A stretch of 64,000 nt of DNA from Holophagae bacterium (GTDB taxonomy: Bacteria; Acidobacteriota; Holophagae; Acanthopleuribacterales; Acanthopleuribacteraceae). Below are positions 30,382-55,636 of this stretch, piece by piece; within the stretch, counting starts at the first letter, position 1; the number at the start of each line of letters is the position of its first letter. The notes under the pieces are model-generated. The model worked only from the letters and a program-made list of their open reading frames with translations. It did not search any database and was not told the DNA's origin. The stretch lies in the NCBI GenBank assembly GCA_029263455.1, contig JAJCXM010000014.1, forward strand, positions 248,001-312,000, given 5' to 3'. Position numbers and translations under genes: made by a program.

Positions 30382-31271
30382 GAAATCTCCTTCGCGGCCA
30401 GTTTATTAAGTAGCTGATCAGCAACTGCGTTAAGTGCTACAGAGGTTGGGGAATGGGGATATTCCTCGGGAAATGAACGACCTTGATCACCGCAGCTAAG
30501 CAGTCTTGGATCGAATGGGATATCTGCGAGCATCGTCAATTGATGCAATTTGGCTTCATCCTCACTTAAGAAAAGGGGCATCAGTCGCTTCGTCGCTGGG
30601 TCAAAATAGTGACGCATATTATAGACGATGCCCAATAACGGTTGCTCCAAAACTCGACGCGCCAGGGTCACCGACTTGCCCACAATTAGCTGAGACAGAT
30701 CCGACCCAATTCCGACAGCTATAAGGTGATCCATACGCTTTAAGGTATCGCACACCATGGTTAAGCGGTCACTTCCCGGAGGCAGATCGATCAAAAGAAC
30801 GTCGAGTTCGCCCCAATCCGTGTCGGCAGCTAATTCGCGCAACGTATTGGCTTCCAGCAAGCCACGCCAAACATGTTGATCGCTCGTTGGACCCTGCCAT
30901 TGCAAAGGATCTTCATCTGCATCCAAAAAAAAGTCCATCGACATGATGCGTATACCGTCTTTTGACAACGCGGGAACGACACCTTTTTCTGAGACGTCCG
31001 GCTTGTGACCTCTGACACCTAATAACTTGGCCATGGATGGGCCATTGAGGTCTGCATCTAAAACGCCGACGCTTTTGCCTCGTATGGCCAGAATACGCGC
31101 CAAATTGGCGGTCACGGTACTCTTGCCTACACCACCTTTACCACTCATGATGCCGAGTATGCAGCCAACTCGACTCAACCTTTGCGACAGACGATCTTGC
31201 TGAGCCTCAACTTGATCTAAGACATGAGAGCCACCATCACCGACGATATCTTTGTATTTGAGTTCAGGCAC
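30378..31271 (-). CDS. Mrp/NBP35-family P-loop ATPase (Fe-S cluster carrier type)
   Basis: The deviant Walker A SGKGGVGKST spans residues 43-52, followed by the MinD/Mrp hallmark DADLNGPSM and a LLIDLPPGS motif. These mark the Mrp/NBP35 branch of the SIMIBI NTPases, which carry Fe-S clusters to apo-proteins. It has no N-terminal DUF59 domain, and the C-terminal CPxC pair of many Mrp proteins is not visible, so it may depend on the adjacent zinc-ribbon protein for cysteines (inference). It lies six bases after a small membrane protein gene and is coupled to the zinc-ribbon gene. Confidence 0.83.
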   Translation of the reverse strand: MPELKYKDIVGDGGSHVLDQVEAQQDRLSQRLSRVGCILGIMSGKGGVGKSTVTANLARILAIRGKSVGVLDADLNGPSMAKLLGVRGHKPDVSEKGVVPALSKDGIRIMSMDFFLDADEDPLQWQGPTSDQHVWRGLLEANTLRELAADTDWGELDVLLIDLPPGSDRLTMVCDTLKRMDHLIAVGIGSDLSQLIVGKSVTLARRVLEQPLLGIVYNMRHYFDPATKRLMPLFLSEDEAKLHQLTMLADIPFDPRLLSCGDQGRSFPEEYPHSPTSVALNAVADQLLNKLAAKEIS

Positions 31272-32845: not shown

Positions 32846-33118
32846 TTGCGCAGCCTGCCGTGGGCCTTAATCATGGCATTGATACATTTTGTTTGGATGT
32901 TGGTCGCCTTAGTCTTACAAATACTAGGTCGTGAATTCACGATTGTAGACGGCGTCTATCCATTTTCCATCATTGTCTATTTCTGGTTACCTATCTACGC
33001 TCGCGAGATCTGGCAAAACAAATCTAAGAATTTAAAGATAGGCAAGCATACTCAATTAAGCGTGGTCGCGGTCCTGCTCTCATCTATCCTTTACCCCATC
33101 ACATTTCATTGGTGGTAA
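32846..33118 (+). CDS. Small three-helix membrane protein
   Basis: Start uncertain: TTG 32846 follows the previous stop by one base, ATG 32873 is an alternative, and the open frame extends back to 32771. The product has three likely helices (ALIMALIHFVWMLVALVLQI, FSIIVYFWLPIYA and LSVVAVLLSSILYPI). It ends inside the converging GNAT gene (20-base overlap). Family not recognised. Confidence 0.5.
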   Translation: MRSLPWALIMALIHFVWMLVALVLQILGREFTIVDGVYPFSIIVYFWLPIYAREIWQNKSKNLKIGKHTQLSVVAVLLSSILYPITFHWW

Positions 33119-33944
33119 ATATTTGCCATATCTGATGTTCACCTCGCGTTATGAAGCCCTGCGTTTGAAGCAATCCTGTGGCGACACCTTCGTTCCATTT
33201 AATGGCTTCCACGACGCCGTCCGAAGTGGCACAGACATCGATCAATAGGATCGTCGCGGCGGCCAAGCCCGAGCGATCCTGTTCCCAAGCCAGCACTTTA
33301 AGCTGACGAACGCCCTCGAAGTCCCGAAATACAGCGACGGCCTCCAATCGATCCGACACCAGTGCCCAAACGGTCAAATCATCAGCGATTGCGTCTAGTA
33401 CCTGCCGTGCTGAACTCCACGCACAAGGCTTTGCGACCTCCAGCAAGGCGTGATCACACACGTCACGCCACTCCAGTACACTTACATGCGGCCCTGCTCT
33501 AGCTGGCTGAGGCGACCCACGCCAAACCAAGTCCTTAAGAACCGGTGCAACCGGCTCAAAGCCCTGAGCCGAAAACAGTGCCTCTGCAATTTGATGGGTT
33601 ACGGGTATCTCAGCACACACGTGGGCTGGGCCCAGAATGGCCATCTTTCGCAATAACGAATTGATCAGGTGACTGGCATGTCCACGACGTAGGCAGTCAG
33701 GATGAACGCCTACGCGCGATATCCAAGTCGAATCGACACGCTTGCTGCCCACCACAACGGCCACTGGATCGTCGCCTTCAAGTGCAATCATTGAACTACT
33801 TGCCCATAGCTGCAGTTCGTGGACCTCACGTTTGTAGCCACGCACATCTAAAGGAGCTCCCTCAAAATGCGCATCCCAACAATGGTTAATAACGTTTAAT
33901 AACAGGGGTGCATCGTCAGGCCGGCAAAAACGATAAGAAACCAT
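33099..33944 (-). CDS. GNAT-family N-acetyltransferase
   Basis: The N-terminal half carries a GNAT domain: RPDDAPLLLNVINHCWD at the start and the acetyl-CoA loop VGVHPDCLRRGHASHLI, an R/Q-x-x-G-x-G/A variant, near residues 77-93. The C-terminal half (from ~145) looks like a second, degenerate GNAT-like domain, making it a tandem of 281 residues. Substrate unknown. It starts two bases after the radical SAM stop, making it the last gene of the hemY operon. Confidence 0.75.
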   Translation of the reverse strand: MVSYRFCRPDDAPLLLNVINHCWDAHFEGAPLDVRGYKREVHELQLWASSSMIALEGDDPVAVVVGSKRVDSTWISRVGVHPDCLRRGHASHLINSLLRKMAILGPAHVCAEIPVTHQIAEALFSAQGFEPVAPVLKDLVWRGSPQPARAGPHVSVLEWRDVCDHALLEVAKPCAWSSARQVLDAIADDLTVWALVSDRLEAVAVFRDFEGVRQLKVLAWEQDRSGLAAATILLIDVCATSDGVVEAIKWNEGVATGLLQTQGFITRGEHQIWQIFTTNEM

Positions 33945-33946
33945 CG

Positions 33947-35263
33947 TCAGTTATCAGCCCTGAATCGTTTAATAAACGAAGGCACGCCGCCCATTCGGCC
34001 ACCCATCTTTTCACGAATCTCGTTCATCATCTCTACGGTAATAATGCTCGCATTACGTTCGCTCGCATATGTCTCCACCCGTTGTACAACCATGCCGCGT
34101 ACGAACGACGGGATCCGCTCCAGCCGTTGTTTCGCTGCAGGTGTCCAAGTAATGGAAGAGGCGACGGCTGCGCCATATGTCACTGCCGGACGAGGTAGAT
34201 TTACTTCTCCCAATGATCCTGGTTCATAAACGCACCAAGGATCTTCGGCCATCAAATCGTGTTTAGAACCCAACGATCTGGCTCTACAACCCCCACACAC
34301 TTCGGCAAATTCACAGCCTCCGCATCGGCCACCAAGTTGGCTGCGATCCCGTATTGTTCGAAACACGTCCGAGTCATTCCATATATCGGCAAAACTTTTG
34401 TCTCGCAGATTGCCGCCGTACTCAGGAATGTAAGGACATGGGGTCATATCACCATTGGGTCGAATACCACAGTAGTGCGTGCCAGCAGGACACCCGCCAG
34501 CTCCGGATCCATAAGCCTTTAGCATGTCTGACTGAGGTTCATTTTGGTACAGGACACGCTGATAATGGGGCGCACACTTCGAGTTAACTAACATGCGACC
34601 GCGGTAGGTCTTCTGTAAATGATAGAGCCGCTGCATGATAGCTTCATATTCGTCAGGCGATACGTCTGTAACGTAGCTACCACGGCCAGTGGCGACCAAA
34701 AAATAGACGTTAAATACGCGGGCGCCCAATTGATGTGCAAATTCCGCGATTGCTTCAAGGTCAGCTGCATTATGACGCGCAACGGTGGTTTGGATAATGT
34801 AAGGGATGTCCCGATCAGCCAGTAACCGCGCGCCTTGGACCGTATTGTCAAATGCACCTTTGACGCGTCTAAACCAATCGTGCTTTTCCGCTGATAACGC
34901 ATCTAAGGACAAGCTCAATCCCTTTATAGAGGCGGCTTCAACGCGGTCAAGTAACTTTTCGCTAATCAAAACACCATTGGTGCCCACGACAACCCACAAG
35001 CCACGTTGTCCGGCGTGTTTCGCGATTTCAAATACATCCGGCCTCAGAAACGGCTCGCCACCCGTCAAGATTAGAAGGGCATTGGCATTGACTTCCACGA
35101 TTTGGTCGATTACTTGGAAACATTCCGCGGTAGTCAGTTCACCATCCAACTCTTTCTTGTCTTTGATCGGTCCTGCGTCGATGTAACAGTGATCGCATTC
35201 AAGATTACAGCGTTTCGTGATATTCCAGGAGATCACGTGTGACGTAAAGGCTGCTAAATCCAA
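33947..35263 (-). CDS. Radical SAM/SPASM protein with C-terminal PCP_red-like domain
   Basis: A TTG start follows the hemY stop by one base. The radical SAM cluster motif is Cys19, Cys23 and Cys26 (CNLECDHC), with the GGEP motif near residue 65. A SPASM-type region with many cysteines (CPAGTHYCGI...CPYIPEYGG...CGGCEFAEVCGGC) occupies ~265-335. The domain style recalls AhbC/AhbD/NirJ enzymes of haem and haem d1 synthesis. From Trp373 a PCP_red-like domain follows (WTPAAKQRLERIPSFVRGM...), the small domain named after protochlorophyllide reductase. Next to hemY this suggests a job in tetrapyrrole metabolism, but a peptide-modifying role cannot be excluded. Confidence 0.8.
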   Translation of the reverse strand: MDLAAFTSHVISWNITKRCNLECDHCYIDAGPIKDKKELDGELTTAECFQVIDQIVEVNANALLILTGGEPFLRPDVFEIAKHAGQRGLWVVVGTNGVLISEKLLDRVEAASIKGLSLSLDALSAEKHDWFRRVKGAFDNTVQGARLLADRDIPYIIQTTVARHNAADLEAIAEFAHQLGARVFNVYFLVATGRGSYVTDVSPDEYEAIMQRLYHLQKTYRGRMLVNSKCAPHYQRVLYQNEPQSDMLKAYGSGAGGCPAGTHYCGIRPNGDMTPCPYIPEYGGNLRDKSFADIWNDSDVFRTIRDRSQLGGRCGGCEFAEVCGGCRARSLGSKHDLMAEDPWCVYEPGSLGEVNLPRPAVTYGAAVASSITWTPAAKQRLERIPSFVRGMVVQRVETYASERNASIITVEMMNEIREKMGGRMGGVPSFIKRFRADN

Positions 35264-35264
35264 A

Positions 35265-36677
35265 CTAGGAGGCCTCGCCCACAGCGTTTTCGTCCTGTAA
35301 ATCTACCTCTTTCAGTATTTGTGTAGCCGCTTGCCGTGCAAGATGCACACAGTCCGGTATGCCCACACGTCCAAGTGCATTACCCAGAATATGCAGACCT
35401 TTATGTTGCTCAACCATTGACTGGATTCGCTTTAGTTTAATGTGATAGCCAGGTTCAAATTGGGGCATCGCTCTGGGGAATCTAAACAGGAAGGTATGTT
35501 TGGGAGCCTGGCTAACTAATCCTAGTCTCTTCAAGCTGTTATGCGCCAGATCTTCCAGGCTGCCGGCACCCTCATCCTTACAACGAACAAAGGCCCGGAT
35601 CGCTGTCATATCGGCCGGAAAGCGATCAGGGAATTTTCCACTCATGAAATTTGCTGCCACTAAGGATCCGCCTTCCTGTTTGCCTGAAAAGAATCCGAAC
35701 GAGGATTGTGGAACCTTGGTAGCCGATTTTTCATACAAAAATGTCACCGTCGCACAAGACGCGTAAGCTTGCTGCTTGAGCGTATCGGATAGCTCAGGTA
35801 ATTGGCCGCTCAATAAGCGAGCAATTTCGTGACCGGGACATGCCAGTACCAGGTGATCGGCTGCTAGTCTTCTACCATCGTCCAATCCAATTTCCCAGCC
35901 GGCAGAGCGTCGCTGTATGTGTCTCACCGTGGCATTGGTTTCTAGACAATCTTTGGGGATCCGCGCAACAAGCGCCTTGATCAAGGCGAACATGCCATTT
36001 TTCAAAGCGACAAAAGCGGGCTTAGAGTTTTGGGCATGACGTGACTCAGCCAGTTTCTTGAGGCCTTGGGTCACGCTGCCATGATTTGATTCAAGGTCCA
36101 GGAAAGCTGGCATTGTTTGCCGCAAACTCATGGACTCAGCCTCACCCAAAAAGAGTCCAGCCATGACTGGTTCCGCAGCTCGCTCGAGGATTTCACGCCC
36201 AAATCGTCGGCGCACAAAAGCAGCGATTGATTCATCTTGCGTTTCAACACCACGAGACGGAATATGTGGTTCTTGAAGTGCTCGCCATTTACCGCGCCAG
36301 CTAAACAAAGGAGAGCGCAAGAAGGCAGCTTTGTCCGTCGGAGCCATCATAAAGAAGCCCTTAGGTAAAGCTTCTAGTTTCCCTCGATGGGCGACATACA
36401 AGTCTCGTGAACGCGGATCAAGACCCTTCAAATCATCAAGCAGCCCCAATTCACGACATAGATCAAGGGCCGCAGGTTTCCTTGCCAATAATGTGTCTGG
36501 TCCCGCTTCAAGGACACCCTGAGCATGATTAACCGTTTGCACCAAACCACCAAAGCGGTCGCCTGACTCCAACAGGGTCAAATCCACAGATCGACCGGCA
36601 AGACGATGAATATCGTAGGCCGTTGTTAGACCAGATACGCCGCCACCAACCACTACGACACGAGTTCGCTGCAACAA
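35265..36677 (-). CDS. hemY: Protoporphyrinogen/coproporphyrinogen oxidase, HemY type
   Basis: TTG starts at 36677 or 36674 are supported by AGGAG just upstream. The FAD-binding Rossmann motif GGGVSGL is at residues 11-17, followed by the dinucleotide-site acid in LLESGDRFGG. The 470-residue length and the late motif with LGNALGRVGIPDCV fit the oxygen-dependent HemY/HemG(PPO) family, which oxidises protoporphyrinogen IX or coproporphyrinogen III in haem synthesis. It heads an operon with a radical SAM protein and a GNAT. Haem supply fits the very haem-rich gene island that follows. Confidence 0.87.
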   Translation of the reverse strand: MLQRTRVVVVGGGVSGLTTAYDIHRLAGRSVDLTLLESGDRFGGLVQTVNHAQGVLEAGPDTLLARKPAALDLCRELGLLDDLKGLDPRSRDLYVAHRGKLEALPKGFFMMAPTDKAAFLRSPLFSWRGKWRALQEPHIPSRGVETQDESIAAFVRRRFGREILERAAEPVMAGLFLGEAESMSLRQTMPAFLDLESNHGSVTQGLKKLAESRHAQNSKPAFVALKNGMFALIKALVARIPKDCLETNATVRHIQRRSAGWEIGLDDGRRLAADHLVLACPGHEIARLLSGQLPELSDTLKQQAYASCATVTFLYEKSATKVPQSSFGFFSGKQEGGSLVAANFMSGKFPDRFPADMTAIRAFVRCKDEGAGSLEDLAHNSLKRLGLVSQAPKHTFLFRFPRAMPQFEPGYHIKLKRIQSMVEQHKGLHILGNALGRVGIPDCVHLARQAATQILKEVDLQDENAVGEAS

Positions 36678-42704: not shown

Positions 42705-44380
42705 CAGACGGCTAACTCTTCAGACTGAGGGTTGCTCTGCTCTGGTGCTTCAAGCGCTCTACGCTTAGCGGTGCGGGTGGCCCACCATAAGAAGAGCAGC
42801 GTCAAGGCGACGGCAGCCGCAGTCTTGACATAAACCTTCTTATCGACAGGCTGTTCTAAATTCAAAAAGTACCAAGAAGAAATACAGGCTTTGGCATCGC
42901 TGTCTTGGCGGTGTCCATCCCAAGCCCAAAATAGCATGGGCACAAAACGGCCCGGCTCAAGCTGAATATCGTTATCGGAACCGCCTTGCAGATCACGCGT
43001 TAGCATCAATCGGTATTGGCCGTTGCGGTAGTGAAGTTGACCTTTGATTTCCAAAGCCTCGCTATTCTCGCTCACCTTATCGCGGCCTTTCGCAATCTGG
43101 TTACTGATGGATACCGGCCCCACAAATTCCGTCCACAGGTTCTGATGTCCGGTTTGTCCATCAGCGGCCGCTTCTACAGCAGTCAGAGAACCATCATGCG
43201 ACCAGCGCCAGAGGTTTACAGCGTTTTTATCGTCACCCATTACAAAGTAAGGGCGTTCATTGTCTGCCGGAATGCCTGTTGGAAATTGAATCGCAAATTG
43301 ATCAGGTAAGACAGACACGTTTGAGCTTTCTTCTTCGTCAGAGAAGAAGTCGTCAAAATCGCCTTCTTCCTCACTTCCCTCTTCTTCAAAGCCCCAATCG
43401 TCATCATCGCTCGCGGCCTCGGGCGCACTTGCCCCTTCGAAGCTATACGAAGGATCATCCCACTCACATAAAAGGACCAACTTAGTGCCGTCATGAACGG
43501 CACGTACGCTAACGCTACGAATCATGGGATGAGTGTTGACCGGGTCCCACATCATTTGTCCTGTCAATGGGAAATAGGCCTTTTGAGCCGTATCCCAAAT
43601 TTCGTCATCCATCGTCTGCGGTAACTCGTCAACCAAAGCGCCGGTTACTTGAGGGGAAGTCGGGTATTCTTCTGCACTCGAGAGACTGGCTACATAAGCA
43701 GCTAGATCCCAACGATCATCGACAGAAATAGCGTCTGCAAATGAGGCCATCGGTGTGCCTGAAATGCCGGTCGTAAACGCTTTAAAGATGTCCTCTAAGC
43801 TATGGCCGGAGCGGAACTCCCAGCCACGATGTAAATTCGCTGGCAGAATGGCGGCATCGTAATCATCAACTAAGGTCAAGGCTGAAGGCCCATCAGCGCG
43901 GCCCTGATATCCATGACAATCACCGCAGCCACTTTCCAAATACACTTCTCTACCATGAGCGATTTTGGCGTCATTTATTTTGGGTGGGTTTCCGGTCTCA
44001 GCCACCTGTGGTGGATAAAAACCTTCCTCTTTATCGCGATCGATAGTGGCCTGATAAAAAGGCTGGATGTGTTTGACTACCGCATTCACTTTGGCGTCGC
44101 CAATATGACCAAAAGCGGGCATGGACGTACCTGGGATACCATCGCGCACGACGCGAATCAAATCTTCTTCCTGAGGGAGTTGACCCGATTGCGTGGAGCG
44201 GAACTTAAATACGCCCGTGGTGAAATCACGCGGTTTAGGATCCACAAAATCAGCGGCCGGACCATCTCCAGCACCCTGATCACCATGACACTGAGAGCAG
44301 TACTTATCGTAAACCGCAGTTCCTTCATCCGTTTGCCCAAATAGGAGCAACGACACACTCAACACAAGCAGGACTTTCAT
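42704..44380 (-). CDS. Dihaem cytochrome c fused to ethylbenzene-dehydrogenase-type haem domain
   Basis: ATG 44380 overlaps the upstream stop (TAATG) and has a GGGGG-rich ribosome site; a longer frame to 44461 lacks one. After the signal peptide, two cytochrome c domains show CxxCH at Cys28 (CSQCH) and Cys152 (CGDCH). From about residue 250 the sequence (WDTAQKAYFPLTGQMMWDP...) matches the haem-b-binding gamma-subunit domain of ethylbenzene dehydrogenase/NxrC-type proteins. It is interrupted near residues 335-365 by a very acidic insert rich in D and E. A single C-terminal helix (~525-545) anchors it, with a cytoplasmic end. It should relay electrons in the periplasm. Confidence 0.8.
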   Translation of the reverse strand: MKVLLVLSVSLLLFGQTDEGTAVYDKYCSQCHGDQGAGDGPAADFVDPKPRDFTTGVFKFRSTQSGQLPQEEDLIRVVRDGIPGTSMPAFGHIGDAKVNAVVKHIQPFYQATIDRDKEEGFYPPQVAETGNPPKINDAKIAHGREVYLESGCGDCHGYQGRADGPSALTLVDDYDAAILPANLHRGWEFRSGHSLEDIFKAFTTGISGTPMASFADAISVDDRWDLAAYVASLSSAEEYPTSPQVTGALVDELPQTMDDEIWDTAQKAYFPLTGQMMWDPVNTHPMIRSVSVRAVHDGTKLVLLCEWDDPSYSFEGASAPEAASDDDDWGFEEEGSEEEGDFDDFFSDEEESSNVSVLPDQFAIQFPTGIPADNERPYFVMGDDKNAVNLWRWSHDGSLTAVEAAADGQTGHQNLWTEFVGPVSISNQIAKGRDKVSENSEALEIKGQLHYRNGQYRLMLTRDLQGGSDNDIQLEPGRFVPMLFWAWDGHRQDSDAKACISSWYFLNLEQPVDKKVYVKTAAAVALTLLFLWWATRTAKRRALEAPEQSNPQSEELAV

Positions 44381-45153
44381 TAGTGTCCCCCTTCCGCTGC
44401 CGAAGTCTGGCTGCGCGGCTCTTTGCCGATCGCATCGTATAAGTACATGATGACAGACCAAATCTCATTCTCTGTCAGGCGTCCCTCCCAAGCAGGCATG
44501 GCGGAGTTCCATGGCGTCGCCTCGCGAGGCAAGCCCGGTCCGCCTTTAGCGATGCGCCAGAACACGTAGGACTCAGACAAAATAGCCAAGGTCTCATCAC
44601 CGGTGAACTTGGCTGGTCTTGGTACGTATCCGCGTGCAAAGTGTCCGTCACCTTCCCAGGTATCACCATGACAAAAGAAACATTTTTCGTAATAGACTTT
44701 CTTGCCAACGGCCAAATGTTCGGCGTACTTTTCGTGATCCGCGCGCAACGGATTACGCTGCGTGATCATATCGATCGTTTTGCCATTGAATTGGATGGAA
44801 TCGGGATTGGCTGGATGCACCGTTCGGAACGGTGGCGGCGCTTCCGTCTTTGGGCTGACCATCTGGTAGGTCTTGTAGCCCGCAAACAAAGGCAAGACAA
44901 CCAGAGCCACGCTGCGCACCGTCTTGTGCAACGGGGTCAAAGCAATCAGTGTTTCGTAGATGGGGCGTTTGAACTCGTTCCACATGTCGTCACTAGAGGC
45001 CGCATACAGAAAAACGACTCCCAAGGTGATGACCATATATTGAGTGACTAGAGATGACGGGATGGGTTTGCTTAAAAAGCCAATTCCATACGTGTAAAAC
45101 AGGTAAGCCAACACAAGCAGAATAAAGGTGCGGAATAAGGGGTTCTTGGTCAT
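44380..45153 (-). CDS. Membrane-anchored monohaem cytochrome c
   Basis: The 257-residue product starts with three hydrophobic segments (residues ~8-26, ~38-52 and ~80-97). The cytochrome c domain has CFFCH at residues 158-162 and a Met in NSAMPAWEG that may be the sixth ligand. It overlaps the CydA-like gene by four bases upstream and the dihaem gene downstream. It probably forms the link between the CydA-like membrane protein and the dihaem cytochrome in one complex (inference from gene order). Confidence 0.8.
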   Translation of the reverse strand: MTKNPLFRTFILLVLAYLFYTYGIGFLSKPIPSSLVTQYMVITLGVVFLYAASSDDMWNEFKRPIYETLIALTPLHKTVRSVALVVLPLFAGYKTYQMVSPKTEAPPPFRTVHPANPDSIQFNGKTIDMITQRNPLRADHEKYAEHLAVGKKVYYEKCFFCHGDTWEGDGHFARGYVPRPAKFTGDETLAILSESYVFWRIAKGGPGLPREATPWNSAMPAWEGRLTENEIWSVIMYLYDAIGKEPRSQTSAAEGGH

Positions 45154-47699
45154 GGTGTAGCGCCCCCTTTCAGCGACATCATATAGGCCATCAAATCGTT
45201 GAATTCACGTGCCGTTAACATGTCGGCAATGGTCGGTGGCATGATGGGCTGATAGCCTGTGACCACCACCTTTTGAGGTTCCAGAATCGATTCTTTAATG
45301 TAATCAGAGGTGTTGATCATGGCAATTTCCGTCAGTTCGGGACCTAATCCCGCAGGCGATCCCTCGCCGCCTACTAAGTGGCAGGTAAAACAAATACCCT
45401 TACCAAAGAAGATCTCTTTGCCCTTAATTGCATCGCCATAGGTTTCTTGCGCGACGGCCATATCAGCGCCACCTGACGCGTCCTCCGGTACATCTGCCTT
45501 CGTCACCGTGATCTCTCCAGACAAACTCTCAAGATAAGCGGTAACCACAAAAAGCTCAGAACCGGTTAGCGAGATCGGGGGCCGATTAACGGCGGGCATG
45601 ATGTTGCCGAAGCCTTCAACCACCAGGGCACCGGGATCAACCATGGATTCCACTATATAAGCTGATGCCGATATGTCTGGGTTTCTTTCACTAGCCAATT
45701 TGGCGACAGGCTTTAGATCTGGCGCTCTAGGCCCGGCTTCGCCGACACCGTGACATAAGGCACAGGTGCCTTTGCCATAGAAGACTTGTTCCCCTAATGC
45801 CACGACTTCACTTTGTTCCATGGTGAAAACATCTTGGTCAGACGAAAGTTCAACGGGTGGTCTATGTTCCACTTGAGGAATCTTGTTGGCAAAAATCACG
45901 AAGCAGCCAATGACCGCTAAACCAAATGCCGTCACCTTGATAAAGACTTTCACCCCGCGCCAACCGCTTCCGCTACTGCCTTCAGCCTTTTTGTTACCCA
46001 GACTGCCCAGCCACATTACAAAACTGGTCATTAATAGGAAGATAATGACGGCAGCCGAAATCTTGATCGAGGCTTCGCCAAGCGTTGGCAGGAATGCGTC
46101 GGCCGACGTATCACGCAAAACACCGTACACATGCCAATGCTGACGCAGAGCAGAACGCGCGTAGCCCATTAAGCCCATGGTCCAGCAGAAGGTGATGGCC
46201 ATAAGAAACAGCGCATACTGTGCGCGATCGGGTATTTTGCCCCAGCGAATCTGACCGACCACTTTCGCATTCTTGAACAAGGCCAAATCAATGCCCGTAA
46301 AGGCCACGATCGCCAATAGCACCGCCATCACTTGTTTAGGCGCATAACCGATGCGCGTGGCTGCATCCACGAAATAACCGCGGATACCAAACCCGATCAC
46401 AATGGCCGCTGCCAATACCAGCACAGACCACTGGATAATCATGCCAACGCTGCGCCAACTCACGGTGGCCTCTTTATTACCTCGCCGATAGAGCATGAAA
46501 CTTAAGAAGGTCGTTAAGATCATGATGTTGACAGCCGTGTTCTTGGCCGACATCACGCCCAATACGCCAAGTAGCGGATGGTGTGCTCCACCCATTTTTC
46601 GCGCTTCCTCTAATGAGGCAACTAACGAGTGCGGCGTCGCCCACACAAGGACACAAATCAACAGGATCGCGAGCAGATACTTGATGTATTTTTTATATCT
46701 TTCAGCACCCTCAATGCGTTCCATGCCAATCCACAAATAGAAGTTTGCGGACAAGAACAGCGTCCCGATCATGACAGCTTGAATGATCCATAACCAAGAC
46801 AAGAACCCGCCCATCAGCGTGATACCCATCTGTTGGTTGTGGTCATAAATCTCTTTACCCAACCAGTAACCGGCGAACGGCAGTACCAAAAATACGCTGA
46901 CCGCCACGAAATTACCTATATAGCCCATCCAATCGTAATAGGCGCGTTGTTCATCGGTTTCAGCGGTCAGGAAACGAAAACCCGCATAGGCACCAGCAAT
47001 GGCACCGCCGAAAACGGCATTAGCGATGAGACGGTGAATATTAAGCGGCTGCCAGGTGGCGTTATTGATCGCGTCCCAAACACTTATGACGGCGCCTGTG
47101 TCTACATCAATACCGTTTGGCGTCATCATAAATGTGGCCCAGGCGTTGGTTAACACCACCAGAGCCGTGCCAAATAGATTAAGCAACACACCCAAGAATA
47201 AGTGCCACTTCTTTTTGTCGCCTTTGAGCCAGTCCCAGCCATACCAATACAAGTAGAGCGTGAAGGACTCACCAAAGAACAGCACCGGGTAGATCCACAT
47301 GGTGGGTGCGAAAACGCCACTCATGTAGTTCCAGAAGGTGGGGTAAAGGGTGATCAACATAAACAATAAGATCGCGCCCAACGTCGCGGTCGCCGAAAAA
47401 GCGATCAATGAGAGCTTGATGAATTCGCGTGCTAATTTGTCGTACTTATCGTCTTTGGTGAGGTACCCAATGTATTCGATGATGAGCGCAAACATGGGGA
47501 CGCCTAAAATGAAGGCGGCAAACATGAGTTTTACCTGCGCAATGATCCACACCAGGTTACGCGATGACATACCGCCAAACTGTCGATATGGAGGAGCCTG
47601 TGACGCGGCCCCATCGGCCATCACCGCGGTCGCTATAAATAGAATGCATGCAATGGAAACCCAACGCCATGTACGATTCGACTTCACCCTATCCTCCAT
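45150..47699 (-). CDS. CydA-like membrane protein fused to two cytochrome c domains
   Basis: The first ~240 residues align by eye with cytochrome bd subunit I: AQVKLMFAAFILG aligns with AMYHFLFVPLTLG of E. coli CydA, and FFGESFTLYLYWYGWDWL with FFLESTFVGLFFFGWDRL. His222 matches the b558 ligand His186, and Glu144 matches Glu107. The b595 ligand His19 is replaced by Lys57. The quinol-loop GRQPW motif is absent. More helices follow to about residue 600. Two cytochrome c domains end the protein: CALCH 646-650 and CFTCH 770-774. No cydB is present. It is unlikely to be a normal bd oxidase; electron transfer from quinol to cytochrome c is my best guess. Confidence 0.82.
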   Translation of the reverse strand: MEDRVKSNRTWRWVSIACILFIATAVMADGAASQAPPYRQFGGMSSRNLVWIIAQVKLMFAAFILGVPMFALIIEYIGYLTKDDKYDKLAREFIKLSLIAFSATATLGAILLFMLITLYPTFWNYMSGVFAPTMWIYPVLFFGESFTLYLYWYGWDWLKGDKKKWHLFLGVLLNLFGTALVVLTNAWATFMMTPNGIDVDTGAVISVWDAINNATWQPLNIHRLIANAVFGGAIAGAYAGFRFLTAETDEQRAYYDWMGYIGNFVAVSVFLVLPFAGYWLGKEIYDHNQQMGITLMGGFLSWLWIIQAVMIGTLFLSANFYLWIGMERIEGAERYKKYIKYLLAILLICVLVWATPHSLVASLEEARKMGGAHHPLLGVLGVMSAKNTAVNIMILTTFLSFMLYRRGNKEATVSWRSVGMIIQWSVLVLAAAIVIGFGIRGYFVDAATRIGYAPKQVMAVLLAIVAFTGIDLALFKNAKVVGQIRWGKIPDRAQYALFLMAITFCWTMGLMGYARSALRQHWHVYGVLRDTSADAFLPTLGEASIKISAAVIIFLLMTSFVMWLGSLGNKKAEGSSGSGWRGVKVFIKVTAFGLAVIGCFVIFANKIPQVEHRPPVELSSDQDVFTMEQSEVVALGEQVFYGKGTCALCHGVGEAGPRAPDLKPVAKLASERNPDISASAYIVESMVDPGALVVEGFGNIMPAVNRPPISLTGSELFVVTAYLESLSGEITVTKADVPEDASGGADMAVAQETYGDAIKGKEIFFGKGICFTCHLVGGEGSPAGLGPELTEIAMINTSDYIKESILEPQKVVVTGYQPIMPPTIADMLTAREFNDLMAYMMSLKGGATP

Positions 47700-47728: not shown

Positions 47729-49777
47729 TTATGAATCAGTAGGTTGACTCTGCTTGCTGTACTCCAGCATTTGTCGCATAAATCCAACTTCGTTGATGGC
47801 CTCATCATTTGAAGTCTTACCCTCATTAACAGCTTTAACGTGGAAGGGACAAACACCTTCAGTTGCGGTCACTTCTGGTTCGGTCTTATCCATAAACCCT
47901 GCTTGACGCAGTAGGTCGTTCATCATTGAGCGTCCCATGTCCAAGCCACCCTCAACTGTCTCCATCTGAATCGTTTCCAATGTCTTCTCTTGAGCAATCT
48001 GCTCAACACGCTGTTGTGTACGGTCCCGCATGAAACCCGCTGGCACACGTAACATGCGATCCAGAGCTTCCGGTGACCACGCATAAGAAGAACGAAACTC
48101 GATGCCTTTTTCGTCATGAGCCAAAACGGGCACTTCGGATCTAGGCAGTTTTTCCTCGATCTCGGTGACAACGGGGCTAATCATTAAGTCGCCTAACTCT
48201 TCAAGAATGATTTGTCGGGCAAACTCTAAAGTCACCGTATTCAATTGATTCATGCGAGCCGATTTCTCGATGCGAGCCTTGGCGCGACGTCGTTTGTAGG
48301 CATCGGTAATGCCTTTCATTTCTAATCGGGCCTCTCGCGTCCAAGTCAGTTTGCGGCCATCATAGGTGGTTTCTTCCTCTAACCCACCCTCTGCAGCGGC
48401 AATTTCACGCACGCGTTCCTGCGAGATGAACTCAAAATCGCTAGCGCCACAAACGGCACAGGCTTTTGGCTCAGGTTCTTTCGCGGTGACACCACAACTT
48501 CGGCAGAGCGCGATTTGTTGTTGCTGCGCGGCATGCTCGATGGCCAAATGTTCGGCTAGCTTCTCTGTCGCGTTAGCCGTGTATTTCGGCATAAAGCGAT
48601 CCATGGCTTCGTCGATCACATGGTTGGTAATCACGCTGTGGCCCTGTTCCATAGCGATACGGAGGATGCCGGTTCTGGCGATACCACGCATCAGGCTAGG
48701 CACTTTGGTCATGCGTTCCTTGGCTTCATCCGTCCAGCGAATGCTTTCCTCAGCTTTAAGATCAAGCTTAGGTACGACGACGCGCGTGCTCAGTAACAAA
48801 TCGCAGGGGCACAGGCGCAACAGATTCTCGGTTGTGTTACCCATACCTTCTTCTTCATCGCCACTATGGACGCCCACACGACCCATCACCAACAACCAAG
48901 GCTCAGTCTTGCGTACGTGATTAATGATTTTCTGGAAGGCTTTACCGTCTAGCAATGTTTTGGTGACCGTGACACCTTCATCGCGTGCAACGGTTTCCGC
49001 CACATTCAAATGGGACTGATAGATCTGTGCTAATCCCGTATCAATGATTTCTTCGTGCAATTGGTTTTGTTCTTCGAATCGGAAGATCTTTTTGGCGCGT
49101 TCAGAAAGGATATCGACGATGCCATTAAAAACCGCGTAATGCAGGTAGGGGTCGTAGACAGAAATGATCTCGATTTTTTTGTCATAGGCTTTAGCTAACT
49201 CAATGGCCGTCATCAACGCACCAAAGGCGTGAGGACTACCATCGATGGCAACTAAAATCACGTCGTTGGTTTCTGTCGCCTGTTTGCCATGACGACGCAT
49301 GACCCACAAGTCGCGATCCAAGTGTCGCGCCACCTGTGCGCATACACTGCCTAGCTGACTGTCGCGTGATTGACCAATACCCTGGGCACCTAGTACCACC
49401 AAGTCATAGTCAGATTCATCAATGTCCTTGTTTATTTCTACGTAATGCTTGCCATCCATCATTTTGCGTGTGAACGGGATTTTCTCCTGGGCACACTTCT
49501 CGCCCATCTGATCGAGGTAACTATCCGAAATGAGCTCTAAACCCATCGTGATCAAGCTATCGTGAATCTTGCGCTGACGCTCGATTTCCTGTTCTTGTAA
49601 GTACTCTTCAGGAAGGGTGTATTCCATTTGCTTAAATCGGTAATCATGCATCCGCGCTGCGTACACATGGGAACCTGTCACCTTTGCGCCAAAAGTCTTG
49701 CCTATGTCGATGGCAAAATCCGCTGCGCGGTTGGAATACGCGGAATTATCGACAGGTACGTAAACACTCTTGTACAT
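47729..49777 (-). CDS. Double universal-stress protein with three PCP_red-like repeats and zinc ribbon
   Basis: ATG 49777 has AAGGAGAGG three bases upstream; the longer frame to 49822 is discarded. Residues ~1-165 and ~170-335 are two universal-stress (UspA) domains, with a DGSPHAFGAL-type nucleotide loop in the second. Then come three PCP_red-like units starting at Trp348 (WTDEAKERMTKVPSLMRG), Trp479 (WTREARLEMKG) and Trp567 (WSPEALDRMLRVPAGFMRD). Two CxxC pairs near 428-445 form a zinc ribbon between the first and second units. The C-terminus ends with a VCPFHVK stretch. It heads the cytochrome operon (29 bases before the CydA-like gene) and may sense redox or nucleotide state. Confidence 0.8.
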   Translation of the reverse strand: MYKSVYVPVDNSAYSNRAADFAIDIGKTFGAKVTGSHVYAARMHDYRFKQMEYTLPEEYLQEQEIERQRKIHDSLITMGLELISDSYLDQMGEKCAQEKIPFTRKMMDGKHYVEINKDIDESDYDLVVLGAQGIGQSRDSQLGSVCAQVARHLDRDLWVMRRHGKQATETNDVILVAIDGSPHAFGALMTAIELAKAYDKKIEIISVYDPYLHYAVFNGIVDILSERAKKIFRFEEQNQLHEEIIDTGLAQIYQSHLNVAETVARDEGVTVTKTLLDGKAFQKIINHVRKTEPWLLVMGRVGVHSGDEEEGMGNTTENLLRLCPCDLLLSTRVVVPKLDLKAEESIRWTDEAKERMTKVPSLMRGIARTGILRIAMEQGHSVITNHVIDEAMDRFMPKYTANATEKLAEHLAIEHAAQQQQIALCRSCGVTAKEPEPKACAVCGASDFEFISQERVREIAAAEGGLEEETTYDGRKLTWTREARLEMKGITDAYKRRRAKARIEKSARMNQLNTVTLEFARQIILEELGDLMISPVVTEIEEKLPRSEVPVLAHDEKGIEFRSSYAWSPEALDRMLRVPAGFMRDRTQQRVEQIAQEKTLETIQMETVEGGLDMGRSMMNDLLRQAGFMDKTEPEVTATEGVCPFHVKAVNEGKTSNDEAINEVGFMRQMLEYSKQSQPTDS

Positions 49778-49967: not shown

Positions 49968-50717
49968 GTGAACGTGTTACGCGGCAAGACATTCAAATTC
50001 TCATTCGAAAAGACGTTTCTTGCCCTGCTCGCAGGAATCACCTGTTTTGCCATGAGCTACTGGCAACATACACGTTACCTTTCCAAGCAAGTCTTTTTTG
50101 AACGACTTGAGGCCATGAGCGCGGCCGGCACTCAGGTGTTTGATCCATCAACTAAGGATTGGGACGCGCTTGTCTACGCATCAATCAAAGTGAGTGGAAC
50201 CTGGGACCACGACGGCGAAATCCTCATCATGAATCGTTCGCTCAACGATCAACCTGGCGTTAAACTGATCACACCATTAAAGGTAGAAGGTACAGACAAA
50301 AGATTGATGGTCGATCGCGGATTTGTGCCTTACGAAATGGCTCAAGACGAGGGGCTGAAAACCTACCATTCAGATGGAATAGTGCAGATAGAAGGTCTGG
50401 TTCGACCCAGCCAAGTACCCCAATTCCTTTTTGCCACACCAGCCGTCTCTGCAGCCGATGCCAGCCGAAAACACTGGTTGCGCGTTGACCTCGATGAGCT
50501 GGCCAAAGGTAGGTCATACGAGTTGTTTCCCGTATTCATAGAAAACACGAAAGCCGTCGCTGGCGGTCCCATCCCCTTTGAACAAGTGGAATTACCTGCA
50601 AGTCGTCATCTCAACTACACCTTGCAGTGGGCCAGTTTCGGATGCTTCGCTCTTTTTCTTGGCTTCTTCTTCCAATTCAAGCGCCGCAAGGTAATGGCGG
50701 CACACAAGAGCGCCTGA
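49968..50717 (+). CDS. SURF1-family cytochrome oxidase assembly protein
   Basis: GTG starts at 49968 or 49974 are both possible. The 249-residue product has an N-terminal helix (~15-30), the long periplasmic SURF1 domain with VDRGFVPYEM near residue 118, and a C-terminal helix in the family motif HLNYTLQWASFGCFALFLGFFF. SURF1 helps place haem a into subunit I. It leads the second oxidase cluster, 142 bases before the SCO gene, which fits that role. Confidence 0.88.
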   Translation: MNVLRGKTFKFSFEKTFLALLAGITCFAMSYWQHTRYLSKQVFFERLEAMSAAGTQVFDPSTKDWDALVYASIKVSGTWDHDGEILIMNRSLNDQPGVKLITPLKVEGTDKRLMVDRGFVPYEMAQDEGLKTYHSDGIVQIEGLVRPSQVPQFLFATPAVSAADASRKHWLRVDLDELAKGRSYELFPVFIENTKAVAGGPIPFEQVELPASRHLNYTLQWASFGCFALFLGFFFQFKRRKVMAAHKSA

Positions 50718-50859
50718 GCTTCAAATTTCGCACAACTAATGGCTAAATCTCCTTGAAAAATAGGCACCATTACCGCTATGATCTTCCCCCGAGCGCGTCC
50801 AGTCGGATTTACTGTTCCGTCCATTGAATATACTGCGCAAACGGGGTCTGGTTCATATC

Positions 50860-51666
50860 ATGAGGAGTGCGTCTTTAATAAGCTGTCTGATGGCCTTTTT
50901 GTGGGTTCAGGCTTTTGCTCAAATCGATTCGACGCCCCTAGTTGATGGCGTCGGTGTGCAAGAACACCTCGGCGAATGGCTGGATCTTGAGCTGGAATTT
51001 AGCGATCAAAACGGGAAAGCCGTGCAGCTAAAGGACTATTTCCAAGCAGGACGACCCGTCATCATCGCCCCTGTTTATTACACGTGTCCGCGTATGTGTA
51101 CATTGGTATTGAATGGCGTGGCACAAATGATTCGTGACGTTGACATGCAGCTAGGCGACGATTATGTCGTCTTGAATATCAGTTTTGACGCCACCAACAC
51201 ACCTGCGATGGCAAAAGCCAAAGCGGCCACATACTACGATTCGGTCAAACCCAAACAGGCTGATGGTCATTGGCAATTTCTAACCGGTAGCCAAGAAGCC
51301 ATTGATCAAGTCATGAACCAGATTGGCTTCAAATACAAATGGATCAATGACGCTTATAGTCACGCTTCTATCATTACGTTCCTCGGCGACGACGGCAAAA
51401 TCACGCGCTACCTTTATGGCGTTCAATATCCGTCGCGGGACGCACGTCTTGCGCTTGTTGAAGCTTCAGAAGGCAAAGTGGGTACGACGCTAGATCGCTT
51501 TCTCATTTTCTGTTTTCACTACGACCCATTGGCCGGTAAGTACACGTTTATGGCCACCAATATTATGCGCGTAGGTGGTGTGCTTACCATCCTCGCCTTA
51601 TCTATCCTCGGATACTTTCTCTTTAAGAAACCATTGCATAAACAAAGGATGGAACTGAATGGATAA
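50860..51666 (+). CDS. SCO1/SenC-family copper chaperone with C-terminal anchor
   Basis: ATG 50860 starts a good signal peptide (MRSASLISCLMAFLWVQAFAQ); the longer TTG frame at 50824 is less likely. The thioredoxin-like domain has the copper motif CPRMC near residue 80 and a His in YSHASIITFLGDDG near residue 167. A C-terminal transmembrane helix (~235-258) anchors it, unlike the other SCO in this window, which is anchored at its N-terminus. It should load CuA of the subunit II encoded next, whose start overlaps its stop by eight bases. Confidence 0.88.
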   Translation: MRSASLISCLMAFLWVQAFAQIDSTPLVDGVGVQEHLGEWLDLELEFSDQNGKAVQLKDYFQAGRPVIIAPVYYTCPRMCTLVLNGVAQMIRDVDMQLGDDYVVLNISFDATNTPAMAKAKAATYYDSVKPKQADGHWQFLTGSQEAIDQVMNQIGFKYKWINDAYSHASIITFLGDDGKITRYLYGVQYPSRDARLALVEASEGKVGTTLDRFLIFCFHYDPLAGKYTFMATNIMRVGGVLTILALSILGYFLFKKPLHKQRMELNG

Positions 51667-52594
51667 GCTGTTTTGGAACGGCCTGACCGACTTGGGAGCC
51701 AGGGTCGACAACGTTCAGATCTTTATTATTGCGTTGATGGGTGTGTGCTTTATTGCGTGTAACGCCGTACTCATTTACTTCATGCTGAAGTACCGCCGTA
51801 AGACTGATAATGATGTCACCTCAACCGTTAGCGGAAACCAGTTACTAGAAATCGTTTGGACCGTGATTCCAGCCGTTATCATGTTGTTCGTTTTCTGGTA
51901 CGGCGTAACCGTTTGGGGCGATCTACGTACACCTCCCGAGAATGCCATGACCATCAATGTCACGGGCGTGCAATGGGCGTGGCGTTTTGAGTATCCAGAT
52001 GGCCGTATCGAAGCCGAAGATCTCTATGTACCCAAAGGCGAAGCCATCCGCTTGAATATGATTTCGAGTGATGTACTGCACTCGTTCTTTATACCTGCTT
52101 TCCGGGTCAAGGAAGACGTGGTGCCTTCCCAATACACGCAACTCTGGTTCCAGGCTGAAAAAGAAGGTAGTTTTGATATCTTCTGCACCGAATACTGTGG
52201 CGATAACCACTCGTTCATGTTGGGCAAGGTACACGTTTTGGGTCCTGAAGCTTGGGACCGCTGGGTACGCCGTGTGCCCGATCCCAATTCCATTCCTCTA
52301 ACCCCTGTGCAACGTGGCGAAAAGCTGTTCTCTAAGTGGGGCTGCGCTGGCTGTCATTCCATCGACGGTTCACCCAATATTGGACCCACCTTCAAGAGCT
52401 TAATGGGTCGCGCCGAATCCATGTCTGATGGTCAAAACATCATCGTAGATGAAAACTACATTATGGAATCCATCAATCAGCCCGATCGCCAAATCGTGGC
52501 TGGTTACCCTAAAGGCCAAATGCCTGCATTCGAAGGTCAATTAAGCCAACAGGACATTACCGACATTATTGACTACATTAAGTCGGTTGAATAA
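51659..52594 (+). CDS. coxB: Cytochrome c oxidase subunit II with C-terminal cytochrome c (caa3 type)
   Basis: Two transmembrane helices (~20-42 and ~62-82) lead a cupredoxin domain with the CuA site CTEYCGDNHSFM and an upstream His in VLHSFF. A cytochrome c domain follows, with haem motif CAGCH at residues 229-233 and a Met in GQMPAFEG as likely axial ligand. The fused haem lets the oxidase take electrons without a soluble cytochrome. It is coupled to the SCO gene and lies 13 bases before subunit I. Confidence 0.94.
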   Translation: MDKLFWNGLTDLGARVDNVQIFIIALMGVCFIACNAVLIYFMLKYRRKTDNDVTSTVSGNQLLEIVWTVIPAVIMLFVFWYGVTVWGDLRTPPENAMTINVTGVQWAWRFEYPDGRIEAEDLYVPKGEAIRLNMISSDVLHSFFIPAFRVKEDVVPSQYTQLWFQAEKEGSFDIFCTEYCGDNHSFMLGKVHVLGPEAWDRWVRRVPDPNSIPLTPVQRGEKLFSKWGCAGCHSIDGSPNIGPTFKSLMGRAESMSDGQNIIVDENYIMESINQPDRQIVAGYPKGQMPAFEGQLSQQDITDIIDYIKSVE

Positions 52595-52607
52595 AGGAGC
52601 CTCTGGA

Positions 52608-54218
52608 ATGTCGACGCATAGCGAAAACACTCACTATCTCGAAGCTAAGGGCTTCAACAACTGGTTCTTCTCGGTGGATCATAAGCGTATTGGCATCATG
52701 TATTTGGTGGCCATCCTCTTCTTTTTCATCTTAGCCGGCATCGCTGCCATGGTGGTCAGAGCGGAACTCTTGTATCCGGGTCAACAGATCATTGATAGGC
52801 ATGGCTACAACGTTGCCTTTACCCTGCACGGGGCCATGATGGTCTTTCTGTTCATCGTGCCCGGTATCCCGGCAACCCTAGGCAATTTCTGTTTACCAAT
52901 TATGATCGGCGCCAAAGACGTCGCCTTTCCAAGGCTCAACCTACTAAGCTTCTGGATTTACTTGCTAGGCGCCGCCATCATCGTCTTCTCATTGATTGGT
53001 CCTCCTGGAGAGTCTTGGTTGGACACGGGTTGGACGCTATACACACCTTATTCGGTGGAGTCGTCCTCAGGCGTAATCCCAGTAACACTGGGCGTATTTG
53101 TGCTGGGGTTCTCATCCATCCTTACAGGCCTCAACTTCGTGGTAACCATCCACAAGATGCGCGCCCCTGGCATGACATGGCACCGGCTACCCTTATTTGT
53201 ATGGGCACTTTATTCAGCTTCATTGATCCAGATCTTGGCCACACCGGTGGTGGGCATTACCTTATTGTTGTTGGTCATGGAACGAACCTTCCAAATTGGA
53301 TTCTTCACCGCCAGCCTTGGCGGCGATCCCATCCTTTTTGAGAATTTTTTCTGGTTCTACTCCCATCCGGTGGTCTACATCATGATCCTCCCGGCCATGG
53401 GCGTGGTCGCGGAAATCCTGCCCGTCTTTTCGAAGAAACCCATCTTTGGCTATCGCGCCATTGCCTATTCGAGTTTAGCGATTGCGCTTGTCAGCTTCTT
53501 TGTTTGGGGCCATCACTTATTTGTTAGCGGAATGTCTGATTGGTCACGCTGGGTATTCTCACTACTCACCTTTGCGGTGGCTATCCCAACCGCCATCAAA
53601 GTATTCAACTGGATAAGTACGCTGTACAAAGGTTCTATCCAACTGGATTCACCCATGCTATATGCATGCGCCTTCATTTTCCTTTTCACCATTGCTGGCT
53701 TAACGGGATTACCTTTGGCAACTTTGGCAACGGATGTCCATCTACATGACACCTACTTCGTGGTTGCCCATTTCCACTACACCATGCAGGGCGGCACCGT
53801 GATTGGCCTTTTAGCTGGCATTCACTTCTGGTTCCCCAAAATATTCGGCAAGATGTATAGCGAAAAGCGAGCAAGGATCGGCTTCTGGATGCTGTTCATC
53901 GGCTTCAATGCCACCTTCATGCCCCAGTTCGTACTTGGCTACATGGGCATGCCGCGCCGTTACTTTGATTATCTTGATCAATTTGCCACGCTACATTTCA
54001 TGAGTTCCATCGGTGCCTTCATCAACGGCATTGCTTACCTCTACATCTTCGGCAACCTCATTCATGCCGTGGTTAAGGGCAGAGCGGCTGAGAAGAACCC
54101 CTTTGGCTCACTTTCCTTGGAGTGGACGGTCCCTTCACCTCCTCCTTTAACCAACTTTGATGAAATTCCGATAGTCACCGACTGGACCTATGGCTACGGC
54201 ACTGAACAGACCGTTTAA
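52608..54218 (+). CDS. coxA: Cytochrome c oxidase subunit I, A2-type haem-copper oxidase
   Basis: ATG 52608 follows AAAGGAG; the longer frame from 52569 overlaps coxB. The 536-residue protein has twelve helices and the usual ligands (TLHGAMMVF, a HH pair in WGHHLF, HDTYFVVAHFHYT). The motif around the CuB His is Tyr251-Ser252-His253-Pro-Val255-Val-Tyr257. The D-channel Glu of HPEVY is a Val, while the YS pair of the A2 subfamily is present. It is therefore an A2-type pump, different from the A1 type at 39.6 kb. Confidence 0.94.
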   Translation: MSTHSENTHYLEAKGFNNWFFSVDHKRIGIMYLVAILFFFILAGIAAMVVRAELLYPGQQIIDRHGYNVAFTLHGAMMVFLFIVPGIPATLGNFCLPIMIGAKDVAFPRLNLLSFWIYLLGAAIIVFSLIGPPGESWLDTGWTLYTPYSVESSSGVIPVTLGVFVLGFSSILTGLNFVVTIHKMRAPGMTWHRLPLFVWALYSASLIQILATPVVGITLLLLVMERTFQIGFFTASLGGDPILFENFFWFYSHPVVYIMILPAMGVVAEILPVFSKKPIFGYRAIAYSSLAIALVSFFVWGHHLFVSGMSDWSRWVFSLLTFAVAIPTAIKVFNWISTLYKGSIQLDSPMLYACAFIFLFTIAGLTGLPLATLATDVHLHDTYFVVAHFHYTMQGGTVIGLLAGIHFWFPKIFGKMYSEKRARIGFWMLFIGFNATFMPQFVLGYMGMPRRYFDYLDQFATLHFMSSIGAFINGIAYLYIFGNLIHAVVKGRAAEKNPFGSLSLEWTVPSPPPLTNFDEIPIVTDWTYGYGTEQTV

Positions 54219-54232
54219 CGAAGGATTGAACT

Positions 54233-54832
54233 ATGAGTGAACCTGGAACCTTTTTTCACCTTCACGAAGAGGACCCTGTCGAGGCTTATGAAAACTTTAA
54301 GCTAGGCATGTGGATCTTCTTGGCTACGGAGGTCCTGTTGTTTGGCGGGCTCTTTGCCGCTTATTTCATTTTCAAATTCATTTGGCCGGATATCTTTGAA
54401 GCGGGTTCTTCTCACTTGAACCGCTTCTTGGGTGGCCTGAACACTCTGGTCCTAATTTTCAGTTCCTACTTCATGGCTATGTCGGTTGACGCAGCACAGC
54501 GAAGTCAGCAAAAGAAGCTGATTCGGAACTTGGCCTTAACGCTGTTTTTTGCATCGGGATTCATCATCATTAAAGGATTTGAATGGATACCGAAACTCAA
54601 TCACGGCATCACGCCAGGCAGCGATGTCTTCTTTTCGGTGTATTACATGACGACCGGATTGCATTTGCTACATGTCGTCATCGGTATGTCATTCATTGGT
54701 TTGTTGTTGAAACGAGCCATAGGCGGTCGCTATCACTCAGAAAATTTTGGTGGCGTTGAAGTAGGTGGCCTTTATTGGCACTTAGTCGACGTGATCTGGA
54801 TTTTCTTATTTCCGCTCCTGTATTTGATCTGA
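54233..54832 (+). CDS. coxC: Cytochrome c oxidase subunit III
   Basis: The 199-residue product has five helices and the family signatures FKLGMWIFLATEVLLFGGLF near residue 22, a HGI/TPGSDVFF loop and GLYWHLVDVIWIFLFP at the end. It follows subunit I by 14 bases and precedes a subunit IV fusion. Close in form to the subunit III at 39.0 kb but clearly a different sequence. Confidence 0.93.
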   Translation: MSEPGTFFHLHEEDPVEAYENFKLGMWIFLATEVLLFGGLFAAYFIFKFIWPDIFEAGSSHLNRFLGGLNTLVLIFSSYFMAMSVDAAQRSQQKKLIRNLALTLFFASGFIIIKGFEWIPKLNHGITPGSDVFFSVYYMTTGLHLLHVVIGMSFIGLLLKRAIGGRYHSENFGGVEVGGLYWHLVDVIWIFLFPLLYLI

Positions 54833-54844
54833 TGAGGTGGCAAC

Positions 54845-55636
54845 ATGAGCGAACATAAAATGGGACACATTCAAGACTTTTCTATTTACATCAAAGTACT
54901 CTTGGCTTTGATCGGCCTTACTTTTGCCACCGTATTGGTTTCGTTGGTAGATTTTGGCATCTTCAATACTTTAGTGGCTCTTTTGGTTGCTTTTATTAAA
55001 GCTTCCTTAGTTGTGCTGTACTTCATGCACGGCAAATATGAGGACCGCGTTACTTGGGCGTTTGTTTACTACCCCATCTTCCTTTTGATGACCTTAATCG
55101 GTGCATTATTTTTGGATTACGGGTTCCGGGACCACACCCACTTCGCCAATATCCCGCAATCCTATGATCAGAAACATCCAGAGGCCGCTCACGGCGCGAC
55201 CACGGAAGAACATGGCGATTCACATGAGGCAGTCGAGGTTCACAGCGAAGAGACCGCAACCGACGACGGCCATAGCAGTTCGCCTGCAGCAGCCATCGAA
55301 AGTTCGGATCATGCCGCACCAGCCGTTGACGAAATGATCGAAAGCCATGAAGTAGAAAGCCAAACGACCGCCATCCATGGAGATATTGAGGCAGGACGCG
55401 CTAAAGCTAAAATCCTCTGCATCGCCTGCCACAAGGTTGATGGTAACGGCAACGAACTACCGGGCGCTCCTCCCTTTGCACAAACAGCCAACGACGCAAG
55501 CAAAACGCCCGAGTTATTGCGCAACTGGATCAAAAACCCTCAAGAAGTGAAGGCTGGCAGCTTAATGCCGAATTTAGGACTCTCTGATGAAGAGGTCGAC
55601 AACCTAATCGCTTACATTAATACCTACAAGAAATAG
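54845..55636 (+). CDS. coxD: Oxidase subunit IV fused to a cytochrome c domain
   Basis: Residues ~1-95 are a prokaryotic subunit IV with three helices and the motif AFIKASLVVLYFMH. A ~80-residue linker rich in His, Glu, Ala and Ser follows. A cytochrome c domain then carries CIACH at residues 192-196 and a late Met in GSLMPNLGLSDEEVD as likely axial ligand. A haem on subunit IV is not part of standard oxidases. The complex from this operon would carry two covalently bound c haems, one on subunit II and one here. A strong terminator follows. Confidence 0.88.
   Translation: MSEHKMGHIQDFSIYIKVLLALIGLTFATVLVSLVDFGIFNTLVALLVAFIKASLVVLYFMHGKYEDRVTWAFVYYPIFLLMTLIGALFLDYGFRDHTHFANIPQSYDQKHPEAAHGATTEEHGDSHEAVEVHSEETATDDGHSSSPAAAIESSDHAAPAVDEMIESHEVESQTTAIHGDIEAGRAKAKILCIACHKVDGNGNELPGAPPFAQTANDASKTPELLRNWIKNPQEVKAGSLMPNLGLSDEEVDNLIAYINTYKK

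Follow-up and report, generated by a model that had tools for sequence, protein, structure and literature searches.

A tandem universal stress protein with three PCP_red units belongs to a conserved gene set co-inherited with a cytochrome-bd-like oxidase

In a 64,000-nucleotide stretch of Holophagae bacterium DNA (family Acanthopleuribacteraceae; hereafter the window), we find a 682-amino-acid protein, here called UspPCP, in which two universal stress protein (USP) domains are followed by a PCP_red unit, a knuckle of two CxxC pairs, two further PCP_red units and a tail. UspPCP and its partners form a conserved gene set that is co-inherited with a bd-like oxidase across two phyla, Acidobacteriota and Methylomirabilota, and a probable role of UspPCP, as a hitherto uncharacterised factor, is to help assemble or regulate that oxidase. 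PCP_red is familiar as a small domain that ends an enzyme of chlorophyll synthesis, and from unexplained stand-alone proteins; the molecular roles of the USP family are, to our knowledge, mostly unexplained. The features of the gene are as follows.

47729-49777, minus strand: UspPCP coding sequence, 682 aa
49292-49777, minus strand: USP domain 1 (Pfam), with the invariant ATP-site motif G130-x2-G133-x9-G143-S
48782-49264, minus strand: USP domain 2 (Pfam), with the motif G299-x2-G302-x10-G313
48605-48736, minus strand: PCP_red unit 1, residues 348-391 (44.2 bits, E 1.5e-10)
48449-48505, minus strand: four-Cys knuckle, C425-x2-C428-x11-C440-x2-C443
48215-48343, minus strand: PCP_red unit 2, from W479, apparently divergent (27.8 bits, E 2.1e-5)
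47951-48079, minus strand: PCP_red unit 3, from W567 (37.1 bits, E 2.5e-8)
47786-47851, minus strand: disordered tail of low pLDDT, with CPFH (643-646) and an [LIM]NE[VAIE] motif (661-664)

The preliminary description gave the correct coordinates for this gene, with one correction: the gene lies on the minus strand, and the plus-strand translation is full of stops. Its ATG start, with AAGGAG just before it, is the same in aligned orthologues. The proposed order of two USP domains and then three PCP_red units was borne out by Pfam, which found Usp in two stretches (E 7.4e-40) and PCP_red in three (E 4.3e-25). AlphaFold modelled the whole protein with a pLDDT of 72 and the C-terminal arm, when taken separately, with a pLDDT of 81. 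Foldseek also aligned the whole model with KCC/NKCC transporters, a likeness that was rejected, as the superpositions were long and poor. Full-length orthologues, about 50-75% identical, are found both in Acidobacteriota and in Methylomirabilota/Rokubacteria, and one genome scan of these groups yielded 28 loci with relatives of UspPCP, in addition to family members. Across 26 aligned orthologues, W348, W479, W567 and the four knuckle cysteines are invariant. Other PCP_red arrangements were also seen: a reading frame with a weakly matching PNPOx-like region and a C-terminal PCP_red adjoins the same cluster at one locus (L068, 16228-17157, minus strand), and three Methylomirabilota frames carry three or four PCP_red copies each and no USP domain (L111, 1034-2728, minus strand; L114, 1269-2225 and 12783-13877, plus strand).

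The tandem USP core scores 137.2 bits against PF00582 (cut-off, 24) over its two stretches. Domain 1 contains the G-x2-G-x9-G-(S/T) motif of the ATP-binding USP subclass, and this motif (G130 to S144) is invariant across the 26 orthologues; the corresponding motif of domain 2 is one residue longer, with 10 residues instead of 9. When the whole model was searched with Foldseek, tandem USPs came first, headed by TTHA0350 with ATP (3ab8). This protein, Rv2623 (3cis) and UspE (5cb0) likewise have two USP domains and the domain 1 ATP-site motif, at a sequence identity to UspPCP of about 12-18%. Unlike these solved tandem USPs, UspPCP adds an arm of ~350 residues containing the PCP_red units and the knuckle, and has strongly conserved helical stretches in both USP domains.

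We scored the three units one by one within the genome against PF08369, for which the gathering score is 32.5 bits. Units 1 and 3 lie above this score and unit 2, as a single unit, lies below it; all three nevertheless match the model, and the absence of significant matches in units 2 and 3, the outcome that the preliminary description had named as fatal to its reading, did not occur. The unit starts that it gave at Trp348, Trp479 and Trp567 are exact. Its WxxEAxxxMxxVP-type pattern does not extend to unit 2, which has no VP and reads WTREARLEMKGITDAYKRRRAKARIEK. A phmmer match of unit 2 to Asr4154 (PDB 2l09; E 6e-4) agrees with its HMM score, and by these sequence comparisons unit 2 is a divergent PCP_red copy. 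The arm model matched 2l09, the BchB PCP_red domain 2kru and ChlB (2ynm) in Foldseek. Unit 1 superposed on 2kru (VIA Z 8.4, 56 residues, 1.7 A) and unit 3 on 2l09 (VIA Z 8.9, 61 residues, 2.2 A); among the matches listed (VIA, one alignment per entry), unit 2 aligned only to RuvB lids. The resemblance of PCP_red to AAA+ lids (Z about 7) was set aside as a common helical arrangement. Among orthologues, PCP_red units are 57-74% identical within a position and 19-29% identical between positions, which indicates that the three copies either diverged before the sampled phyla split or spread as a unit.

The PCP_red domains of BchB/ChlB and of stand-alone Asr4154 are, by HMM, the same 45-residue domain as the UspPCP units, and their fold is common to modelled units 1 and 3. 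The existence of stand-alone copies such as Asr4154 fits the earlier remark that PCP_red has no known function alone. UspPCP itself is not a BchB: it scores 46.1 bits against NF002789 (cut-off, 509) and 42.3 bits against TIGR01278 (cut-off, 490), and both matches are confined to its C-terminal domain. In contrast to BchB/ChlB, it has three PCP_red copies and lacks the nitrogenase-like catalytic domain, and a profile search found no BchB in the window genome.

The CxxC pairs noted earlier between units 1 and 2 are C425/C428 and C440/C443. The two pairs expected of a zinc ribbon or rubredoxin-like knuckle are thus present, but the suggestion of a zinc ribbon specifically has to be widened. The segment aligns ungapped to the rubredoxin-like knuckle of rubrerythrin with equal cysteine spacing, so zinc is just one option for this candidate metal site. 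Zinc-ribbon and rubredoxin profiles scored below their cut-offs on UspPCP (RUBY_RBDX, 13.0 versus 26.5 bits; DZR_2, 12.5 versus 27). The tail varies in length among orthologues, with the [LIM]NE[VAIE] motif conserved. CPF was rejected as a general feature of the tail, since it was found in Acanthopleuribacteraceae and few others only.

UspPCP was previously placed at the head of a respiratory operon, and this position holds: it is the first gene of a minus-strand block, with the bd-like oxidase gene 29 bp downstream. The block continues with a cytochrome c, a di-haem cytochrome c/ethylbenzene-dehydrogenase-like protein, a haem-copper oxidase, SCO, HemY, a radical SAM/SPASM protein and a GNAT acetyltransferase. 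The genes of this region that bear on the argument are listed here.

45150-47699, minus strand: cytochrome-bd-like subunit I fused to c-type haem domains
44380-45153, minus strand: cytochrome c, 257 aa
42704-44461, minus strand: di-haem cytochrome c with an ethylbenzene-dehydrogenase-like haem b domain
35265-36677, minus strand: HemY-type protoporphyrinogen/coproporphyrinogen oxidase (TIGR00562, 229 bits; cut-off, 97.85)
33947-35263, minus strand: radical SAM/SPASM protein, AhbD/NirJ-like, with a C-terminal PCP_red at 34013-34147
33099-33944, minus strand: GNAT acetyltransferase, a conserved neighbour in Acidobacteriota
30378-31271, minus strand: Mrp/NUBPL-type ParA ATPase (Fe-S carrier family), a conserved neighbour
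30082-30381, minus strand: 99-aa protein with CxxC/CPxC and CPF, overlapping the ATPase gene by 4 nt

The literature describes OR-N bd-like oxidases as putative oxidisers of cytochrome c and treats their composition as uncertain (PMC10839748, PMC12342949). The window oxidase combines a CydA-like protein with c-type cytochromes, as do the non-quinol bd-like oxidases OR-N/OR-C, CydAA' of Nitrospinota and Nitrospirales, a likeness that we draw at the level of the class and not to one subfamily. The cytochrome part of the subunit I fusion matches a di-haem protein whose structure has been solved (7zs0), and the di-haem cytochrome c/ethylbenzene-dehydrogenase-like gene is conserved next to the oxidase. 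A second oxidase operon, of the haem-copper type, runs divergently from the UspPCP operon (49968-55636, plus strand; SURF1, SCO, COX2, COX1, COX3 and COX4-cytochrome c), and the two have one intergenic region in common.

The radical SAM gene, which the preliminary description did not mention, as it did not mention the conservation of the set or its co-inheritance with the oxidase, lies ~14 kb from UspPCP in the same block, with HemY 1 bp upstream, and encodes the sole PCP_red of the window genome outside UspPCP (58.8 bits). In all seven members tested, the two best NCBIfam models for this protein are the haem b synthase AhbD and NirJ2. It differs from these enzymes in carrying a C-terminal PCP_red and in scoring about 290-320 bits against an AhbD cut-off of 500 (TIGR04545, 319.9 bits in the window and 289-308 in six orthologues). 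The 99-aa protein is the orthologue of a small protein that is longer in other genomes and usually ends in PCP_red; the window copy has lost this domain and kept Cys-Pro-Phe, a motif that all 27 small-protein sequences contain and that we take to be reminiscent of haem regulatory motifs. In a typical genome PCP_red occurs five times, spread over UspPCP, the radical SAM protein and the small protein. These three, the bd-like oxidase, the cytochromes and the ATPase are largely found together in both phyla, with a gene order that differs between them.

We compared the distribution of PCP_red with that of the bd-like oxidase in 297 Acidobacteriota genomes. PCP_red was present in 33 and the oxidase in 30, with 29 genomes having both, 4 PCP_red only, 1 the oxidase only and 263 neither. 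In three of the four genomes with PCP_red only, the domain ends a protein of roughly 570 aa, which, from its length and the size of the genome, fits the BchB of phototrophs. Of 95 Methylomirabilota, 57 had both and 29 had neither, 7 had PCP_red without the oxidase and 2 had the oxidase without PCP_red, so that the correspondence is almost one-to-one for genomes with the oxidase (29/30 and 57/59, respectively, have PCP_red). UspPCP itself occurs in 57 of these 95 genomes: 51 have it together with the oxidase, 6 have it with no oxidase detected, 8 have the oxidase and no UspPCP, and 30 have neither. Incomplete drafts may explain some of these mismatches. The Fisher P values (9e-35, 1e-15 and 9e-12) ignore shared descent and overstate the evidence, because the genomes are related. 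In the window's family, the small protein is found in the four genomes that encode UspPCP and is missing from the other three.

This gene linkage suggests that the set serves the bd-like oxidase, and an accessory domain common to three unlike proteins suggests that PCP_red is a docking or hand-over module. We tentatively favour UspPCP as the cytoplasmic nucleotide-binding hub of a helper set for this cytochrome c-linked oxidase. In the mechanism that we infer, the tandem USP core would bind ATP and act as a nucleotide-dependent switch, and the three PCP_red units and the knuckle would form an arm that docks the PCP_red-tailed radical SAM protein and the small CPF protein, and perhaps also the Mrp ATPase. 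For the oxidase, the set would then prepare, carry or insert haem or another tetrapyrrole, along with Fe-S cofactors. A role in cofactor supply or assembly is favoured because the other known home of PCP_red is a tetrapyrrole enzyme, because the radical SAM protein is nearest to tetrapyrrole enzymes and is adjoined by HemY in the window, and because Cys-Pro-Phe is invariant in the small partner. Against this, the radical SAM protein falls short of the AhbD cut-off, and ferrochelatase is encoded in all seven genomes of the window's family, with or without the system, so the set explains no missing haem step. The idea that the radical SAM protein fills such a step was rejected on this ground, and HemN_C proteins, present in six of the seven genomes irrespective of the system, gave it no support. 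HemQ is absent from all seven, though each has ferrochelatase.

The architecture was initially described as sensor-like. USP proteins are often regulators, and UspPCP, as the first gene of an operon divergent from that of a second oxidase, could use its USP pair to sense ATP/AMP or redox state and its PCP_red arm to control respiratory gene expression or activity; the knuckle, with its rubrerythrin spacing, may hold iron or zinc. In Foldseek the arm also weakly matches NrdR, a repressor of zinc-ribbon/ATP-cone type. However, Pfam found no DNA-binding domain in UspPCP, and the co-inheritance of a radical SAM protein, an Fe-S carrier ATPase and a common PCP_red looks more like a biosynthetic set. 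We consider signalling somewhat unlikely, and the wider context favours assembly or cofactor supply for one oxidase at least as much as a sensor.

PqqD-like domains serve as recognition modules in peptide maturation, and PCP_red, found on both the radical SAM enzyme and the small protein, could do the same if the enzyme modifies a peptide, perhaps the region around CPF in the small protein or else a subunit of the cytochromes. The SPASM domain and the constancy of CPF agree with such a modification, but the best models for the enzyme are tetrapyrrole enzymes rather than peptide maturases, and the window small protein keeps CPF without PCP_red, making this explanation distinctly improbable. It is very unlikely that PCP_red is an inert helical add-on linked to the oxidase by shared ancestry alone, as its AAA+ lid-like fold might suggest, since unit conservation is position-specific and the set stays together while gene order changes.

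The hub reading also has a bolder extension, in which PCP_red is a general tetrapyrrole hand-over module and the set an undescribed ATP-gated modified-haem pathway for the bd-like oxidase. We regard this extension as unlikely; if true, UspPCP, the radical SAM protein, the CPF protein and the Mrp ATPase would make or deliver a modified haem, gated through the USP core.

The joining of USP to PCP_red has a precedent in archaea. In the available portion of one report, the automatic annotation of Methanomicrobiaceae proteins includes USP joined to LI-POR_suB-like_C (PCP_red), which is called unusual there (PMC12159084). UspPCP shares this joining and, compared with the proteins as that portion describes them, has the triple repeat and the bd-like oxidase linkage as its own. 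Our literature search, which is not proof of absence, found no paper on a triple-PCP_red protein, the gene set or the oxidase linkage, nothing relevant on PCP_red and Asr4154, and nothing usable on haem d synthesis. PCP_red appears here on three different proteins of one set, in genomes without the chlorophyll enzyme, tied to an oxygen reductase. Through this oxidase-linked gene set the function of PCP_red becomes testable, a USP gains a defined partner set, and UspPCP becomes a candidate factor for cofactor supply to a poorly known class of bd-like oxidases.
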